From the NCBI GenBank assembly GCA_937901435.1, contig CALGTJ010000658.1:1-5509 (forward strand): a stretch of 5,509 nucleotides of DNA, read 5' to 3'. Every line of letters begins with the position of its first letter. The first letter of the stretch is position 1. Below, one piece after another: positions 387 to 5,380 of the stretch. Under the pieces are notes generated by a model. The model was not told the DNA's origin. It did no database searches and worked only from the letters and a program-made list of their open reading frames with translations. Both the position numbers and the translations under genes were made by a program. Origin of the DNA: an uncultured Rhodobacter sp. (GTDB taxonomy: Bacteria; Pseudomonadota; Alphaproteobacteria; Rhodobacterales; Rhodobacteraceae).

Positions 387-1561
387 TGCGCAAACCTGCC
401 TCTTACGACGGTGTTGTGGTCTGTGCGCCGGTGACAGTGCCCTATGTGCGCTTTTCCCCCGAAACGGCGCATTGGTGGACGGGGGCCGCGCTATTCGCCT
501 TGGCAGAAAAAACCGGTCTGCGCCCTGCGGATATCGACGGGTTCTGCTTTTCCAGCTTCTCTGCGCAGCCCGATACTGTCGTCGGCGTGGTGCAGCATCT
601 GGGTCTGTCGCCACGCTGGATGGATCACATCCCGACAGGTGGGGCGAGCGGCGTCATGGCCCTGCGCCGTGCGGCGCGCGCAGTGCAAGCCGGCGACGCC
701 GAGGTCGTCGCCTGTGTTGCTGCAGACACCAACCAGATCGAGAGTTTTCGCCAAAACCTGACAATGTTTTCAAGGTTTTCCCAAGACGCGACCTACCCCT
801 ATGGCTTTGGCGGGCCAAACGCGACCTTTGCCCTGATGACCGATAATTACATGCGTGAATTCGGCGTGACCCGTGAAACCTTTGCCAAGCTTTGCGTCGC
901 GCAACGCGCCAACGCCCTGTCCAACCCCTACGCCCTGATGAAGACTCCCTTGACGGTCGATCAATATATGAACGCCCGCCCCATTTCCGATCCGGTGCAT
1001 CTGTTCGACTGCGTGATGCCCTGCGCCGGGGCCGAGGCGTTTCTGGTGACAACGCCGGAAAAGGCCGCCGAACTGGGTCTGTCCAGCGCCAATATCCGTG
1101 CCACAATAGAGCGTCACAACGCCTTTGCCGAAGACCCGGTGCAAACGCGCGGTGGCTGGGTTCGCGATATTGACACGCTCTGGCAAGCGGCGGATCGCCA
1201 ACCCAGCGATATGGACACGGTGCAGGTCTATGACGACTATCCGGTCATCGTCTCGATGCAACTCGAAGACCTCGGATTTTGCGCCAAGGGCGGAATTGCG
1301 GGCTTTGTTGCGGCGAATGAATTTACCATCGACGGCACCCTGCCGCTGAACACGAACGGCGGGCAATTGTCGGCGGGGCAGGCGGGGGCCGCTGGCGGGT
1401 TTCAGAACATGACAGAGGCGCTGCGCCAGATTCTGCATCAGCCTCTGGGCGATCAGGTACCCGACGCGCGGCAGGCGCTGGTGTCTGGCTTTGGACTTGT
1501 GAACTATGATCGGGGAGTCTGTACGGGTGCGGCGGTGCTGCAAGTGGGGGACTTGAGATGA
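386..1561 (+). CDS. Thiolase-fold protein (SCP-x/Ltp2-like), thiolase catalytic residues missing; possible CoA-ester aldolase
   Basis: 391 residues, the usual length for SCP-x/Ltp2-type thiolase-like proteins. The frame is open further upstream (to 209), but that lies inside the ligase gene; ATG 386 overlaps the ligase stop (TGATG). Thiolase landmarks are recognisable but altered. The loop that normally carries the nucleophile (CASG) reads GASG at 86-89, so Cys is Gly86. The SCP-x HDCF motif reads YDDY (282-285), so His is Tyr282. The NxxGG...GHP block reads NTNGG...AGQA (322-333), so His is Gln332. The C-terminal Cys-Gly-rich loop is replaced by SGFGLVNYDRG (368-377). LEDLGFCAKGG (293-303) is typical of the lipid-transfer thiolase group. 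Such proteins work with a DUF35 partner, encoded next door. Classical thiolysis is unlikely; a retro-aldol cleavage as in Ltp2 is an inference. Confidence 0.88.
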   Translation: MRKPASYDGVVVCAPVTVPYVRFSPETAHWWTGAALFALAEKTGLRPADIDGFCFSSFSAQPDTVVGVVQHLGLSPRWMDHIPTGGASGVMALRRAARAVQAGDAEVVACVAADTNQIESFRQNLTMFSRFSQDATYPYGFGGPNATFALMTDNYMREFGVTRETFAKLCVAQRANALSNPYALMKTPLTVDQYMNARPISDPVHLFDCVMPCAGAEAFLVTTPEKAAELGLSSANIRATIERHNAFAEDPVQTRGGWVRDIDTLWQAADRQPSDMDTVQVYDDYPVIVSMQLEDLGFCAKGGIAGFVAANEFTIDGTLPLNTNGGQLSAGQAGAAGGFQNMTEALRQILHQPLGDQVPDARQALVSGFGLVNYDRGVCTGAAVLQVGDLR

Positions 1562-2796
1562 CCGACCCACTGCTGCCACCAAAACGCAAAGACCCGCTCA
1601 AAAATACAATGATGGGCCATGTGGCCCCGGCCTCGCGCAGTCGCGCTGCCAAGGCGATGGCTGCGCGTGCGGCGCAGGGGCGGCTTGTGCTGCAAAGCTG
1701 CGCGACCTGCGCGCGCGTCACCTATCCTCCGCGCGACCGCTGCCCGACCTGTTGGGGTCCGCTGGACTGGACTGATCAGCCGACGGGGGCGGTGGTTCTG
1801 GCCGAAACCACGATCCGGGCCACGACGGATAAATTCTTTCGCGATCATTTGCCGTGGCGCATTGGTACGGTACGGATGGACGCGGGGCCGACCGCGATTG
1901 TCCATCTGCACGGCGATGTGGCGGTCGGTGAAGCCGTTGAAATGACGTTGAAACTGGATCGCGGTGGCAATCCGGCGCTGTTTGCGCTGCCGGTCAAGGA
2001 GACCCCGAACATGCAGGACGACCCACAGTTGCGCGTCTTTACCGCCTCGCCCAAACACCGCCGCGTGCTGGTCACGGACGGGCGCACGGCGCTGGGGCAA
2101 GAGACTGCGCGCGCCTTGTTACAGGCTGGTGCGCAGGTGGTGTTTCTGGGCAATTCTGACCGATTGATGCGCTACAACGGACAGCCAGAGATCGAGGCGG
2201 AGGCGGGTGTCGAACCTGTCACATTGCGCGTCACCGACAGCCGATCGGTGCAGGAACTGGCCGCGCAATTGGGGGGGCGGATTGATGTTGTGGTGAATAC
2301 AGCCTTGCATACACGGGCTGGCACTGTCGCCTTTGGCGGCAAACTGACCGATCTGCAAGAGGCGATGGATGTCGAGGTGTCCGGCCTGATGCGACTGGCG
2401 CAGGCCTTTGGCCCGGCCCTTAGCGCGCGATCTGGTGATGGGGTGAACGCGGCGGCGGCGTTCGTCGATGTGGCCTCGATCTATGGGCTGACGGGCAATC
2501 CGGGGTTCGCCGGGATGGCGGCGAGTGCGGCGGCGCGCATGACCTTGTTGCACGGATTTCGACACGAAATGCAGCAGACAGGTATTCGCGTGATGAGCAT
2601 TCTGACCGGTCCCATCGACGACGGCTGGCACCAATCTGTGCCCCCGCCCAAGGTCACCCCCGCCCAGATTGCCCGCGCAATTGTGCAGGCGTTAGAGGCA
2701 GGGCAGGAACAGACCTGTGTCGGGGATATCGCCAAAAACCTGATGGCGCGCTGGCAAGATGACCCGCTGCTGACCGTGCGAGAGGAAAATCAATGA
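1558..2796 (+). CDS. DUF35 zinc-ribbon/OB-fold domain fused to a degenerate SDR domain
   Basis: 412 residues in two parts. Residues about 20-150 form a DUF35 (OB-fold, acyl-CoA-associated) domain: zinc ribbon Cys48-x2-Cys51-x10-Cys62-x2-Cys65 with the typical YPPRDRCPTC stretch, then a beta-rich OB-fold. Residues about 165-400 form a Rossmann/SDR domain. There the cofactor motif TGxxxGxG is degraded to TDGRTALG (173-180), NNAG reads NTAL (247-250), and Ser307 is kept, but the catalytic Tyr is Met320 and the Lys is Ala324. This half is therefore probably a structural pseudo-enzyme. DUF35 domains bind thiolase-like partners, as in the archaeal thiolase/HMG-CoA synthase complex and Ltp2-ChsH2, so this protein should pair with the preceding product. 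The start is ATG 1558, with GGGGGA at 1546-1551 as ribosome site and a 4-nt ATGA overlap with the upstream gene. Confidence 0.88.
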   Translation: MTDPLLPPKRKDPLKNTMMGHVAPASRSRAAKAMAARAAQGRLVLQSCATCARVTYPPRDRCPTCWGPLDWTDQPTGAVVLAETTIRATTDKFFRDHLPWRIGTVRMDAGPTAIVHLHGDVAVGEAVEMTLKLDRGGNPALFALPVKETPNMQDDPQLRVFTASPKHRRVLVTDGRTALGQETARALLQAGAQVVFLGNSDRLMRYNGQPEIEAEAGVEPVTLRVTDSRSVQELAAQLGGRIDVVVNTALHTRAGTVAFGGKLTDLQEAMDVEVSGLMRLAQAFGPALSARSGDGVNAAAAFVDVASIYGLTGNPGFAGMAASAAARMTLLHGFRHEMQQTGIRVMSILTGPIDDGWHQSVPPPKVTPAQIARAIVQALEAGQEQTCVGDIAKNLMARWQDDPLLTVREENQ

Positions 2797-3578
2797 GTGC
2801 TTCTGTTCTGGCGCAAATGGCCACGGCTCTGGCCAGCGGCAAGGTGAAATGCGTGGATCTGACCAACACGCTCAGCCCCGATTTTCCAGTGATCGTGCTG
2901 CCCGCAGAGTTTGGCCAATGCGCGCCGTTTCGGATGGAAAAGCTGTCACGCTATGATGACAACGGGCCCGCGTGGTATTGGAACAATATCTCGATGAATG
3001 AACACACGGGCACCCATTTCGACGCGCCCGCCCATTGGGTGACGGGGCGTGATTTGCCGTCCAACACGGTTGACGCGCTGCCGGTGCAGGACTTTGTCGC
3101 GCCCGCGGCGGTCATTGATATCAGCGCAGAGAGTGCGGCGCATGCGGATTTCGTACTGACCCGCGCCCATCTGGAAAACTGGGAGGCGCAGCACGGCAAG
3201 ATCCCGCCAAAGCATTGGATCGCCCTGCGGACGGATTGGTATAAACGCGTCGGCACCGCTGGATATCTTAACCTTTTAGAGGACGGCGCCCATTCTCCCG
3301 GACCAGACGCGGGTGCGATGGAATTCTTGGTACATGACCGGGATTGCATCGGGCTTGCGGTGGAAACTGTTGGCACGGATGCGGGGCAGGCGGTGCATTT
3401 CAACCCGCCGTTTCCGGCTCATTCGATTTTGCATGGCAACGGGCGGTATGGGCTGCAATGCCTGACCAATCTGGATCAACTGCCAACATTTGGCGCGCTT
3501 ATCGTGGCCTGCCCGCTCAAGATCGAAGGCGGCTCTGGCAGCCCGTTGCGGGTGATTGCCATGATTGAAAGTGTATAA
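2793..3578 (+). CDS. Cyclase/kynurenine formamidase-like metal-dependent hydrolase
   Basis: 261 residues, normal for the Cyclase family (PF04199: KynB, isatin hydrolase and relatives), which use a divalent metal to hydrolyse amide or ester bonds, often in rings. The signature HTGTHFDAPAH (71-81) gives metal ligands His71, His75 and Asp77 and the further His81. The second half of the site is HSILHGNGRYGLQCLTNLDQ from His210. Where KynB has a metal-binding Glu 12 residues after its His, this protein has Gln222. The gene overlaps the preceding stop by 4 nt (ATGA) and has a good ribosome site, AGAGGA at 2781-2786, 6 nt before the start. In this operon it probably opens a ring or hydrolyses an ester or amide intermediate. 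There is no signal peptide, so it is cytoplasmic. The family is secure, the substrate is not; the operon context does not favour kynurenine breakdown. Confidence 0.9.
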   Translation: MSASVLAQMATALASGKVKCVDLTNTLSPDFPVIVLPAEFGQCAPFRMEKLSRYDDNGPAWYWNNISMNEHTGTHFDAPAHWVTGRDLPSNTVDALPVQDFVAPAAVIDISAESAAHADFVLTRAHLENWEAQHGKIPPKHWIALRTDWYKRVGTAGYLNLLEDGAHSPGPDAGAMEFLVHDRDCIGLAVETVGTDAGQAVHFNPPFPAHSILHGNGRYGLQCLTNLDQLPTFGALIVACPLKIEGGSGSPLRVIAMIESV

Positions 3579-3579
3579 G

Positions 3580-4305
3580 ATGGCCCAGCGTACCACTATG
3601 ATAACAGGCGGTAATTCAGGAATTGGGGCGGCGATTGCGCAGCGTATTCTGGATCGGGGCGAGGCGGTGGTGTCCTTGGGTCTTGCACTGCCAGAAACTG
3701 ATCATCCCAGTCTCACAGGATATGTCGCAGACCTTACAAACCCGCAGGATACCGCCGCGATCGCGCAAGAGATTTGCGCCCGGCATGACATTGATCAACT
3801 GGTACATAACGCCGGGATGATCCTGCCTGATCCCTTGGTCGAGGCGGACCCGGACGATATCCTGACCCTCGCGCAGTTGCATCTGGCCGCGCCCATGGCC
3901 CTGACCAAAGCGGCGCTGGCGGGAATGGAGGCGCGGGGCTACGGGCGCATTTTGTTCATAAGTTCACGCGCTTCTATGGGGATGGCGACGCGGTCGGCCT
4001 ATGCCTCGACCAAGGCCGGGGTGCATGGTTTGGCGCGCACATGGGCCTTGGAACTTGCCCCCAAGGGGATCACCGTCAATGTGATCGCGCCGGGACCGGT
4101 GTTGACGGATAACTTTTGGGGGATCGTGCCCAAAGACGGCGCGTTGCAGGACAAGATTGCCAAAGGCGTGCCTGTGGGGCGCATTGGAACCGTTGAAGAT
4201 ATCGCCAATGCGGCGGCCTTTTTCCTGCAAGAGACCTCGGGATTCGTGACCGGGCAGGTTCTTTTTGTTTGCGGTGGTACAAGTCTTGGCGGACTAAACC
4301 TGTAG
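3580..4305 (+). CDS. Short-chain dehydrogenase/reductase (SDR, FabG-like)
   Basis: 241 residues from ATG 3580, a typical classical SDR length. Cofactor motif TGGNSGIG (9-16) lies close to the N-terminus, which supports this start; a TTG at 3565 in the same frame would add five residues inside the upstream gene. HNAG is at 76-79, the catalytic Ser at 128 or 129, and YASTK gives Tyr141 and Lys145. The NVIAPGPVLTD segment (167-177) and the C-terminal VTGQVLFVCGG (223-233) are also standard. The fourth catalytic-tetrad residue, usually Asn in helix alpha-4, appears to be His101. Ser, Tyr and Lys are intact, in contrast to the SDR half of the DUF35 fusion, so this is the likely active NAD(P)(H)-dependent oxidoreductase of the operon. 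It starts 1 nt after the hydrolase stop, and no further + strand gene of the operon follows. Confidence 0.92.
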   Translation: MAQRTTMITGGNSGIGAAIAQRILDRGEAVVSLGLALPETDHPSLTGYVADLTNPQDTAAIAQEICARHDIDQLVHNAGMILPDPLVEADPDDILTLAQLHLAAPMALTKAALAGMEARGYGRILFISSRASMGMATRSAYASTKAGVHGLARTWALELAPKGITVNVIAPGPVLTDNFWGIVPKDGALQDKIAKGVPVGRIGTVEDIANAAAFFLQETSGFVTGQVLFVCGGTSLGGLNL

Positions 4306-4306
4306 C

Positions 4307-4370
4307 GGCGCCACAATCACGCCATGAACCCCGGTTTCGGCGCCTGTTTGACGTGATCCGGGGGCAAACT
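4307..4370 (+). terminator. Possible weak terminator of the catabolic operon
   Basis: Immediately after the SDR stop there are several mutually exclusive inverted repeats: GGCGCC 4307-4312 with 4339-4344, ATCACG 4316-4321 with CGTGAT 4352-4357, and CCCCGG 4329-4334 with CCGGGG 4358-4363. The loops are long and no U-run follows, so this is not a canonical Rho-independent terminator. It may only reflect GC-rich sequence. The call rests mainly on position at an operon end. Confidence 0.25.
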
Positions 4371-4389
4371 TACCCCTTCGCTACATCAT

Positions 4390-4554
4390 GATTCTCTCTG
4401 AATGAAATAAATTTAACCTCTCGTTAACCCATTAAGCCTACCCGTCAGAGGCCCTTGGTGCTGCTTGAAGAGGGTGTACTGGACCCTAAGGCATAGAAAG
4501 ACTCTATTAAAAACAGTGTGATACCTGAATGTTTGCAGGACTCGTCATTGAGTC
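4390..4554. promoter_or_regulatory. Cluster of four GANTC (CcrM methylation) sites
   Basis: GATTC 4390-4394, GACTC 4500-4504, GACTC 4539-4543 and GAGTC 4550-4554 match the GANTC target of the alphaproteobacterial cell-cycle methyltransferase CcrM. By eye I find only four others in the rest of the window (943, 1429, 1515, 4241), all within genes. Sites in promoters can make transcription depend on replication-linked hemimethylation, read by GcrA or CtrA. The function here is inferred from clustering and from the neighbouring CtrA and DnaA boxes. Confidence 0.5.
4413..4429. promoter_or_regulatory. CtrA-binding box
   Basis: TTAACC at 4413-4418 and TTAACC at 4424-4429 are exact direct repeats 11 bp apart, giving TTAA-N7-TTAA, the consensus of the alphaproteobacterial response regulator CtrA, which contacts two half-sites one helical turn apart. 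A further TTAA follows at 4432-4435. It lies about 240 bp upstream of the protease start and about 110 bp downstream of the operon end, so the protease gene is the likely target. Whether it activates or represses cannot be read without a mapped transcription start. Confidence 0.65.
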
Positions 4555-4555
4555 C
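4538..4555 (+). other. Perfect 6-bp stem-loop built from two GANTC sites
   Basis: GGACTC (4538-4543) and GAGTCC (4550-4555) are exact inverted repeats around a 6-nt loop. Each arm contains one GANTC site, so the symmetric pair could be a dimeric protein site, a double methylation target or an RNA hairpin in the protease leader. No U-run follows, so it is not a terminator. Confidence 0.5.
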
Positions 4556-4564
4556 CTTGTAAAG

Positions 4565-4573
4565 TTATCCACA
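4565..4573 (+). promoter_or_regulatory. DnaA box
   Basis: TTATCCACA is a perfect match to the strong DnaA box (TTATNCACA), 94 bp upstream of the protease ATG. DnaA boxes outside origins can mark genes regulated by DnaA. I see no second box nearby, and a single 9-mer can occur by chance, although AT-rich 9-mers are rare in GC-rich DNA. Confidence 0.45.
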
Positions 4574-4595
4574 ATTGAGCTTCCATATCGCCTAA

Positions 4596-4620
4596 CGATG
4601 GGTTCAAGTCCGCCCCATTG
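4596..4620 (+). other. Small stem-loop in the protease leader
   Basis: CGATGGG (4596-4602) can pair with CCCATTG (4614-4620) over 7 bp with one G-U pair, leaving an 11-nt loop. If transcribed it would sit about 47 nt before the protease start. It is short, and its role is unknown. Confidence 0.3.
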
Positions 4621-4657
4621 TCGCCCCACCAGTAACTATGTTGGAGGACGGGGCGTT

Positions 4658-4662
4658 GGAGG
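4658..4662 (+). promoter_or_regulatory. Ribosome binding site that fixes the protease start
   Basis: GGAGG lies 4 nt before ATG 4667, where the protein begins directly with a signal peptide. The same octamer GTTGGAGG occurs just upstream at 4640-4647 and again at 4655-4662. The proximal copy serves the protease start; the distal one is too far away to do so. Confidence 0.75.
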
Positions 4663-4666
4663 TACG

Positions 4667-5380
4667 ATGAGATTAATAATGTTGTCCTTGGCGTTCTGCG
4701 CCGCCATAGGGCAGTCGGTTTTTGCAGGCGGCGGCCTGTCGGACCGAGACGGGCGTCAAGTGCCCGGATGGGAAGCGGTCGGGCGGTTGAATATCGCCGG
4801 ATTGAATATGTGCACGGGGGCATTGATTGCACCGGATATCGTGGTGACGGCGGCTCACTGCCTGTTCCATCCACGCACAGGTCGCGAAATTGACGCTCGC
4901 AAGATCGAGTTCAATGCGGGGCTATACGGCACAGTTTCCACCGCAAGCCGGATGGTCAGCCGGTCCGTCATTCATAAGGATTATCGTTACCGTCCGGCGG
5001 GCAAGGCCCAGGTCGGGACTGATCTGGCGGTGTTGCGGTTGGAAAGCCCGATCAGCATCAGCTTGATCAAGCCGCTTCAGATCGATGAACGCCCGGAGCG
5101 CGGCGATGCTGTTGGGGTTCTGTCGTATCGCGTGGACCGTGCGACCACCCCTGCCGTTGAAGAGCCGTGCTATGTGATTGCCCGTCAGGCCGACACAGTT
5201 GTGATGTCCTGCACCGTAGAATTCGGGGCGTCTGGTTCGCCTGTGTTCATCATCGAAAGAGGCAGCGCGCCGCGCCTTGTTTCCGTGGTGACCGCCAAGG
5301 CCGTTATGGGTGGAAAAAGAGTTTCGATTTCGACCGCTTTGGCGGCATCGGTCAAACAACTTTTGCGACGGGCCGGCTAA
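4667..5380 (+). CDS. Secreted trypsin-like serine protease (S1 family)
   Basis: 237 residues from ATG 4667. The frame is open upstream to an ATG at 4529, but that would bury the signal peptide behind 46 residues and has no good ribosome site; GGAGG precedes 4667. Residues 1-20 form a signal peptide (Arg2, hydrophobic 3-14, likely cleavage after VFA at 20), so the enzyme is exported. Catalytic triad: His64 in TAAHC, Asp119 in GTDLAVL, Ser189 in GASGSP. Cys49/Cys65 bracket the His as in chymotrypsin-fold proteases, and Cys168/Cys182 could form a second disulfide. The residue before Ser is Ala188 rather than the Asp of trypsin (GDSGG), and the motif ends SGS, as in bacterial V8/glutamyl-endopeptidase-like members. 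There is no propeptide of obvious length and no extra domain. The substrate is unknown. It converges with an HlyD-like gene. Confidence 0.9.
   Translation: MRLIMLSLAFCAAIGQSVFAGGGLSDRDGRQVPGWEAVGRLNIAGLNMCTGALIAPDIVVTAAHCLFHPRTGREIDARKIEFNAGLYGTVSTASRMVSRSVIHKDYRYRPAGKAQVGTDLAVLRLESPISISLIKPLQIDERPERGDAVGVLSYRVDRATTPAVEEPCYVIARQADTVVMSCTVEFGASGSPVFIIERGSAPRLVSVVTAKAVMGGKRVSISTALAASVKQLLRRAG

Follow-up and report, generated by a model that had tools for sequence, protein, structure and literature searches.

The IadH protein of bacterial auxin degradation joins a DUF35 module to a dehydrogenase fold without its catalytic machinery and is probably the non-catalytic subunit of a retro-aldolase

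The DNA analysed here (hereafter the window) is a stretch of 5,509 nucleotides of contig CALGTJ010000658.1, from an uncultured Rhodobacter sp. Its gene order and operon content identify it as the end of an iad operon, which encodes the aerobic degradation of the auxin indole-3-acetate, with the arrangement iadF (3' end)-iadG-iadH-iadI-iadJ. Our subject is the open reading frame (ORF) at 1558–2796, iadH, which lies between iadG and iadI on the forward strand, like every feature of the window described below. By degrading auxin, bacteria influence the growth of roots, and work is under way to engineer this capacity into soil bacteria. For the removal of the acetyl side chain, annotation has so far named a ketothiolase and an alcohol dehydrogenase, and the sequences described here argue against both.

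The window begins inside the acyl-coenzyme A (CoA) ligase gene iadF (3–386; AMP-binding_C, PF13193, 50.6 bits), whose encoded end is 69–72% identical to the C-terminal ends of longer ORFs (535–551 amino acids) in the related loci L001, L002, and L044. The iadF stop codon overlaps the ATG of iadG (386–1561), which encodes a thiolase-fold protein (Thiolase_C_1), a putative retro-aldolase of the Sal type; iadH in turn has ATGA overlaps at both ends, with iadG and with iadI (2793–3578; Cyclase, PF04199). The iadI product belongs to the isatin hydrolase family, its best PDB match being isatin hydrolase A (5nna, 363 bits, E = 6.7e-108). The last gene, iadJ (3580–4305, with an alternative start possible at a TTG at 3565), encodes a short-chain dehydrogenase/reductase (SDR; adh_short_C2, 152.3 bits) with the canonical motifs TGGNSGIG and YASTK. 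In Ruegeria pomeroyi and Roseibium algicola, the order is reductase, Rieske alpha subunit, Rieske beta subunit, AMP-binding protein, thiolase family protein, SDR fusion, cyclase, and SDR, which is iadC-D-E-F-G-H-I-J with the roles described in PMC12633357; the iad gene numbers of PMC10374108 follow the same order. Operons of the relatives start with the reductase and both Rieske oxygenase subunits, whereas the window starts inside iadF and so shows none of iadCDE. The Rieske alpha subunits of loci L001 and L050 have as best match 9o71 (E = 1.6e-162 and 6.4e-176), the structure of Variovorax paradoxus IadDE (PMC12633357).

This assignment, which the first-pass annotation of the sequence did not foresee, also agrees with the distribution of the oxygenase. 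We compared 41 genomes bearing the iadH fusion, of which one (G486, where the contig concerned measures 3.5 kb) does not enter the neighbourhood and IadD counts, with 40 genomes lacking it, picked non-randomly from the listed negatives of searches at the level of the family (20), class (8), and phylum (12). An IadD homologue (E ≤ 1e-60) was present in 36/40 fusion-bearing versus 1/40 fusion-lacking genomes, and in 33/40 versus 0/40 when at least 50% identity was required; at that identity, it was linked to the fusion inside the fetched locus in 21/40. Homologues from Bradyrhizobium belong to the same fusion family. Relatives of the fusion at E ≤ 1e-40 were found in 34 of 72,556 plasmid records, so that plasmid residence is possible, and one pattern-based scan of viral contigs returned no relative.

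In IadH, a DUF35 module (a Cys4 zinc ribbon and an oligonucleotide/oligosaccharide-binding [OB] fold) is joined to an SDR fold without the dehydrogenase machinery. Two Pfam models score above cut-off in the N-terminal half, zf-ChsH2 at 1666–1761, with Cys48/51/62/65 encoded at 1699–1752, and OB_ChsH2_C at 1768–1947. The C-terminal half (residues 166–412; 2053–2793) has the SDR fold; its closest solved relative is 5u4s, with which it has the segment GPID...VPPPK in common. By alignment, the N-S-Y-K tetrad of catalytic SDRs is replaced by E-S-M-A, the last three residues being Ser307 (2476–2478), Met320 (2515–2517), and Ala324 (2527–2529), all encoded within 2476–2529. The equivalent of the cofactor loop TGxxxGxG is TDGRTALG (2074–2097), in which two of the three glycines are gone, and that of NNAG is NTAL (2296–2307). 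These observations bear out the first-pass annotation, which had described a DUF35 protein fused to an SDR domain deprived of its catalytic Tyr and Lys and of the TGxxxGxG and NNAG motifs, accompanied in the same operon by an intact SDR.

We then asked how general this state is, using an alignment of 401 rows made of three protein searches (the best 120 listed of each), the window, and the 40 genomic loci; 10 partial rows with a single domain were dropped and motifs were counted on the remaining 391. The zinc ligands Cys48/51/62/65 are kept in 391, 391, 390, and 391 rows, respectively. At position 174, the first glycine of the loop, Gly is never found (Asp 276, Asn 107, Ser 4, Glu 3, Ala 1), whereas the second (position 178) is Gly in 8 rows and the third (position 180) in 367; within NTAL, Asn247 is kept in 389 rows and Thr248 in 317. 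Tyr occupies position 320 in 165 rows and Lys position 324 in 121, the two occurring together in 24 rows, Lys only in 97, Tyr only in 141, and neither in 129. The 24 rows that keep N-S-Y-K all come from the third search, form one distant branch, and carry Asp for the first loop glycine, whereas none of the 121 rows nearest to the window (one of them a gap) has Lys at 324. In a tree of 85 rows, the 11 rows with Lys make up one side of a single branch (Shimodaira-Hasegawa-like approximate likelihood ratio test support 100, one change, by a quick method), which is compatible with either one loss or one gain because the tree is unrooted. The Asn, Tyr, and Lys columns have a mean entropy of 2.54 bits versus 1.57 for the SDR half (85 rows), and 3.4% of random triplets are equally variable. 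Conversely, Gly198, Asn247, Arg253, Gly351, Trp357, Gln359, Pro364, and Lys365 are nearly invariant (380–391 of 391), and we take most of them to lie within or just after the nucleotide-binding motifs of active SDRs. This conservation on the former nucleotide face suggests that the surface still has a binding or docking partner. In addition, the window and nine chosen relatives among the 40 are 42–67% identical over the SDR half and 43–74% over the DUF35 half, so conservation of the dead half comes close to that of the live one.

Two further possibilities could be discarded. A sequencing error or a decay restricted to this strain (the latter raised by the first-pass annotation as a way in which its view might fail) is excluded because motif loss is common to the family; the homologues with intact motifs that it had also envisaged do exist for the Tyr/Lys pair, but only in the distant branch described above and never with the first glycine. 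Neither does another Tyr/Lys pair stand in for the lost one, as judged from row conservation: the only positions at which Lys reaches a majority of the rows are 166, 204, 241, 365, and 404, and a Y...K pattern within 312–333 is confined to the 24 distant rows.

The distant fusion branch comprises loci L071 and L075–L078 and most of the protein rows P0241–P0360, with N-S-F-K or N-S-Y-K and no first loop glycine. Genome G646 (locus L120, about 6100–8400, reverse strand) carries, beside an ordinary pair, a second and divergent one, made of an IadG (55% identical) and a DUF35-SDR fusion (29%) that by eye has even fewer SDR motifs. In a PF12172 survey of 150 genomes, searching 36 loci by tblastn with the SDR half brought up no fusion other than the known one (L091), which is not a census as some PF12172 matches came without a locus; in the loci of this survey, the IadJ query matched an SDR at 30% in L086.

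IadG, the product of the gene upstream, has a thiolase fold, but two of its three best PDB matches are retro-aldolases. Its PDB matches rank as 9myr (CtSal, the retro-aldolase of Comamonas testosteroni bile-acid side-chain degradation), 4u4e, and 6ok1 (Ltp2), with the thiolase complexes 6esq and 7pxp lower. In CtSal, a glycine occupies the place of the nucleophile of SCP-2 thiolases, the YDCY motif gives the catalytic Tyr302 and Cys304, and Gln347/Gln352 may support Cys304 (PMC12329534). Alignment with CtSal places Gly85-Gly86 of IadG (638–643) at the nucleophile stretch, YDDY (1229–1240) at YDCY, and GGQLSAGQAG (1358–1387) at the segment containing Gln347/Gln352, from which it follows that IadG retains the Tyr, the Gly, and both Gln, with Asp for the Cys of Sal. 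Over 40 sequences (the window and 39 loci), PxGG, YDDY, and GGQLSxGQAG are invariant (40/40), Ala330 being the only variable residue of the last motif. The thiolase nucleophile is thus missing in all 40 (GG, as judged through CtSal and not by direct alignment with a thiolase), and IadG resembles Sal and Ltp2 in combining this absence with the catalytic Tyr of a YD motif. It departs from both in the general acid, Cys304 in Sal and Tyr344 in Ltp2, since Asp284 stands at the place of Cys304 and Gln332 at that of Gln352/Tyr344 in 40/40 sequences. That Asp284 takes over as general acid is a guess.

Several counts associate IadH with IadG. The iadG gene is directly upstream of the fusion in 39/40 loci, the exception (L081) being a fusion at a contig end. 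Among 295 family genomes, evenly drawn from a larger group, 26 have a close IadG homologue (E ≤ 1e-60) and 25 have the fusion (E ≤ 1e-50), each of these 25 being among the 26; in the 26th (G616), iadG runs off the contig end. An isatin-hydrolase-like gene lies within 3.5 kb of the fusion in 37/40 loci, and of the other three, two have fusions cut by contig ends and one (L058) has its cyclase 5.6 kb away. From adjacency and co-occurrence, the DUF35 module of IadH most likely docks on IadG. The first-pass annotation had suggested a structure prediction with the same 386–1561 product; such a pairing is upheld as most likely, but the partner looks like a Sal-type retro-aldolase and not like a thiolase.

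These data lead us to propose that IadG-IadH is probably a DUF35-bridged retro-aldolase, which would convert dioxindole-3-acetyl-CoA to isatin and acetyl-CoA, with IadH as a non-catalytic subunit. In this scheme, IadF would form the CoA thioester of dioxindole-3-acetate, and IadG would break the C–C bond by a retro-aldol reaction, with Tyr282 as base and Asp284 in place of CtSal Cys304, to yield isatin and acetyl-CoA; IadI would then open isatin to isatinate. IadH would contribute its docked DUF35 module, its SDR half keeping the fold without the dehydrogenase machinery. Because its beta-hydroxyl is tertiary, dioxindole-3-acetate is not oxidisable to a beta-keto acid, and steroid pathways use Ltp2 in the same tertiary-hydroxyl situation for a C3 side chain (PMC11321319, PMC8399759). 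In V. paradoxus, deletion of iadF, iadG, iadH, or iadI lowers anthranilate and leads to accumulation of C10H9NO4, and a C8H7NO3 compound was detected and shown to be distinct from N-formylanthranilate (PMC12633357); by our formula matching, C8H7NO3 is the formula of isatinate. A role as the DUF35 subunit of IadG explains how iadH can be a required gene without a dehydrogenase site, and the DUF35 of ChsH2 is indispensable to aldolase activity in C. testosteroni TA441 (PMC12502768). The retro-aldolase proposal would revise the 2025 preprint (PMC12633357), where annotation led to a ketothiolase for IadG and an alcohol dehydrogenase for IadH; it is testable and needs no reductant.

The iadH gene and its deletion phenotype were already known (PMC12633357). 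In the passages covered of the iad papers (PMC12633357, PMC10374108, PMC9613470, PMC11630574) and in literature searches mainly of open-access papers, we found no statement of a DUF35 module in IadH, of a dead SDR half, or of IadG as a retro-aldolase, and a word-start search of the text of PMC12633357 returned no DUF35, thiolase, or aldolase. The public names of iadG and iadH ("thiolase family protein" and "SDR family NAD(P)-dependent oxidoreductase" in L118 and L119) appear to mislead on both functions.

A number of points weigh against the retro-aldolase proposal. Matches of the DUF35 half to solved DUF35 chains are modest (6ok1_B, E = 6.7e-6; 9myr_B, E = 0.05), and 4u4e, the second-best match of IadG, was deposited as a thiolase. 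Replacement of CtSal Cys304 by Ala, Ser, or His abolished activity (PMC12329534), and an Asp at this place is no known acid in this enzyme class. The active site of IadG is read from an alignment, since the AlphaFold2 model, built from 3 sequences, reached a predicted local distance difference test score of 31. For neither IadG nor IadH did we find a reported activity. Each of the two V. paradoxus proteins was cloned and purified on its own, IadG as a SUMO fusion (PMC10374108), so IadG seems not to need IadH for solubility. Finally, the accumulating metabolite is C8H7NO2, which the authors credit to IadF, IadG, and IadH together (PMC12633357); having two hydrogens more than isatin (C8H5NO2), it implies some reduction in the cell, and one branch of the family keeps N-S-Y-K (24/391). 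We take the C8H7NO2 of the iadI deletion, which has the formula of dioxindole, as reduced isatin, and some IadH proteins may still reduce.

The last points are those on which a working IadH would rest, namely an atypical alcohol dehydrogenase or ketoreductase acting, for example, on isatin to give dioxindole after cleavage by IadG. C8H7NO2 accumulates both in the iadI deletion and in the iadCDEFGH_JK2 strain (PMC12633357), cultures of V. paradoxus were found to contain dioxindole (PMC9613470), and 5u4s, which itself has Leu at the Tyr position, is titled as an NADP complex. We nevertheless consider this activity unlikely. In the window, Glu, Met, and Ala replace Asn, Tyr, and Lys, and the loop has lost two glycines, the first of which is Asp or Asn in 383/391 rows; the three catalytic columns also rank with the more variable positions of the SDR half. 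Moreover, dioxindole would be a side product, since the substrate of isatin hydrolase is isatin. Quite unlikely, although compatible with a retro-aldolase, is a hetero-oligomeric dehydrogenase in which the SDR half would be the inactive partner of IadJ. An intact SDR is indeed encoded in the same operon, and the title of a FEBS J. 2021 paper mentions inactive pseudoenzyme subunits in BbsCD, an enzyme of toluene degradation. IadJ homologues, however, lie within 3.5 kb of the fusion in 20/40 loci (counted in the loci only) versus 39/40 for IadG, and their absence near half of the loci leaves the pairing weakly supported. The usual dimer interface of SDRs is formed by helices E and F, whose entropies (1.58 and 1.40, versus 1.57 for the SDR half) are not above average in conservation for E and slightly so for F. 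No chain named BbsC appeared among the 60 shown of 347 PDB matches; BbsC was not among the Foldseek and VIA matches listed either, from which we draw no conclusion. A reading of IadG as a true ketothiolase to which IadH supplies the DUF35 subunit would come near that of the preprint and accords with the thiolase fold, the "thiolase family" annotation, the name of 4u4e, and EC 2.3.1.16 as assigned by annotation in PMC12633357. We regard it as very unlikely, given the GG found in 40/40 at the catalytic-Cys stretch, as in CtSal, a best match that is a retro-aldolase, and the tertiary hydroxyl of dioxindole-3-acetate, which allows no beta-keto thioester at that carbon.

Among known systems, the CtShy-CtSal hydratase/retro-aldolase (9MYR) is among the closest to IadH-IadG: an N-terminal DUF35 is fused to a second metabolic domain, and CtSal shares with IadG the thiolase fold, the Gly for the nucleophilic Cys, the Tyr-Asp motif, and GGQLSxGQxG. 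It differs by its active MaoC hydratase, where IadH has a dead SDR, its Cys3His1 zinc site (Cys4 in IadH), its YDCY (YDDY in IadG), and its steroid substrate. Shy-Sal released 93% of its intermediate and channelling was not significant (PMC12329534); the CoA or substrate channelling suggested by the first-pass annotation thus gains no support here. In ChsH1-ChsH2-Ltp2 (6ok1), DUF35 likewise belongs to a protein whose own domain is non-catalytic and is docked on a retro-aldolase for a tertiary beta-hydroxyacyl-CoA, but it is C-terminal, the dead domain is a MaoC paired with an active MaoC subunit, and the motif is YDHF. The iad locus of V. paradoxus CL014 matches by gene order, with IadH between iadG and iadI and an iadH deletion that lowers anthranilate, although its IadH is described as an annotated alcohol dehydrogenase (PMC12633357). 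BbsCD, an SDR heterotetramer with inactive subunits, and BbsAB belong to one pathway, in which a thiolase-fold enzyme is likewise accompanied by a pseudo-SDR subunit and by a subunit of DUF35 type, but BbsA and BbsC are separate proteins and BbsAB is a thiolase. Unlike IadH, 5u4s (from Burkholderia cenocepacia) is a single SDR domain of 245 amino acids, which keeps the Lys and the glycine loop, its Leu for Tyr being read from the alignment.

Within the retro-aldolase proposal, a dead SDR would be a further kind of partner domain in DUF35-aldolase complexes, after MaoC hydratases, and a role as plain spacer or scaffold fits the pseudo-SDR half. More tentatively, IadG-IadH may represent a new class of thiolase-fold retro-aldolase with a non-steroid substrate and an invariant Tyr-Asp pair, in which the former nucleotide face of the pseudo-SDR (Asn247, Arg253, Trp357, Gln359, PPPK) would have been retained to serve a new ligand, for example CoA or the oxindole product, by which the aldolase site is controlled or completed.

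Some fusion loci have other neighbourhoods. An Asp/Glu racemase family gene was found by tblastn near IadG-H where the fetched locus lacks Rieske genes (L058, L064, L066–L070, L073, L074), and the fusion of L076 adjoins a molybdenum hydroxylase gene, and related pathways may therefore make use of the IadG-H-I core. Locus L058 also contains, about 5.6–6 kb before the fusion and with no iadG or iadH between them, an extra iadF-like gene (72%) and an extra isatin-hydrolase-like gene (81%), both nearer to the versions of the window than the L058 fusion is (44%). A protein combining FAD_binding_3 and Oxidored_FMN is encoded beside the fusion operon in L050 (12583–14886, forward strand), which carries a MarR gene as well, and in L066 (5961–8348, reverse strand). 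This is presumably the make-up of 2-aminobenzoyl-CoA monooxygenase/reductase, which would suit an onward anthranilate route. In the window, a scan of 4250–4700 found no promoter or terminator, and the ORF at 4529–5380, separated from iadJ by a gap, encodes a trypsin-like serine protease (PF00089, PF13365) that probably lies outside the operon.

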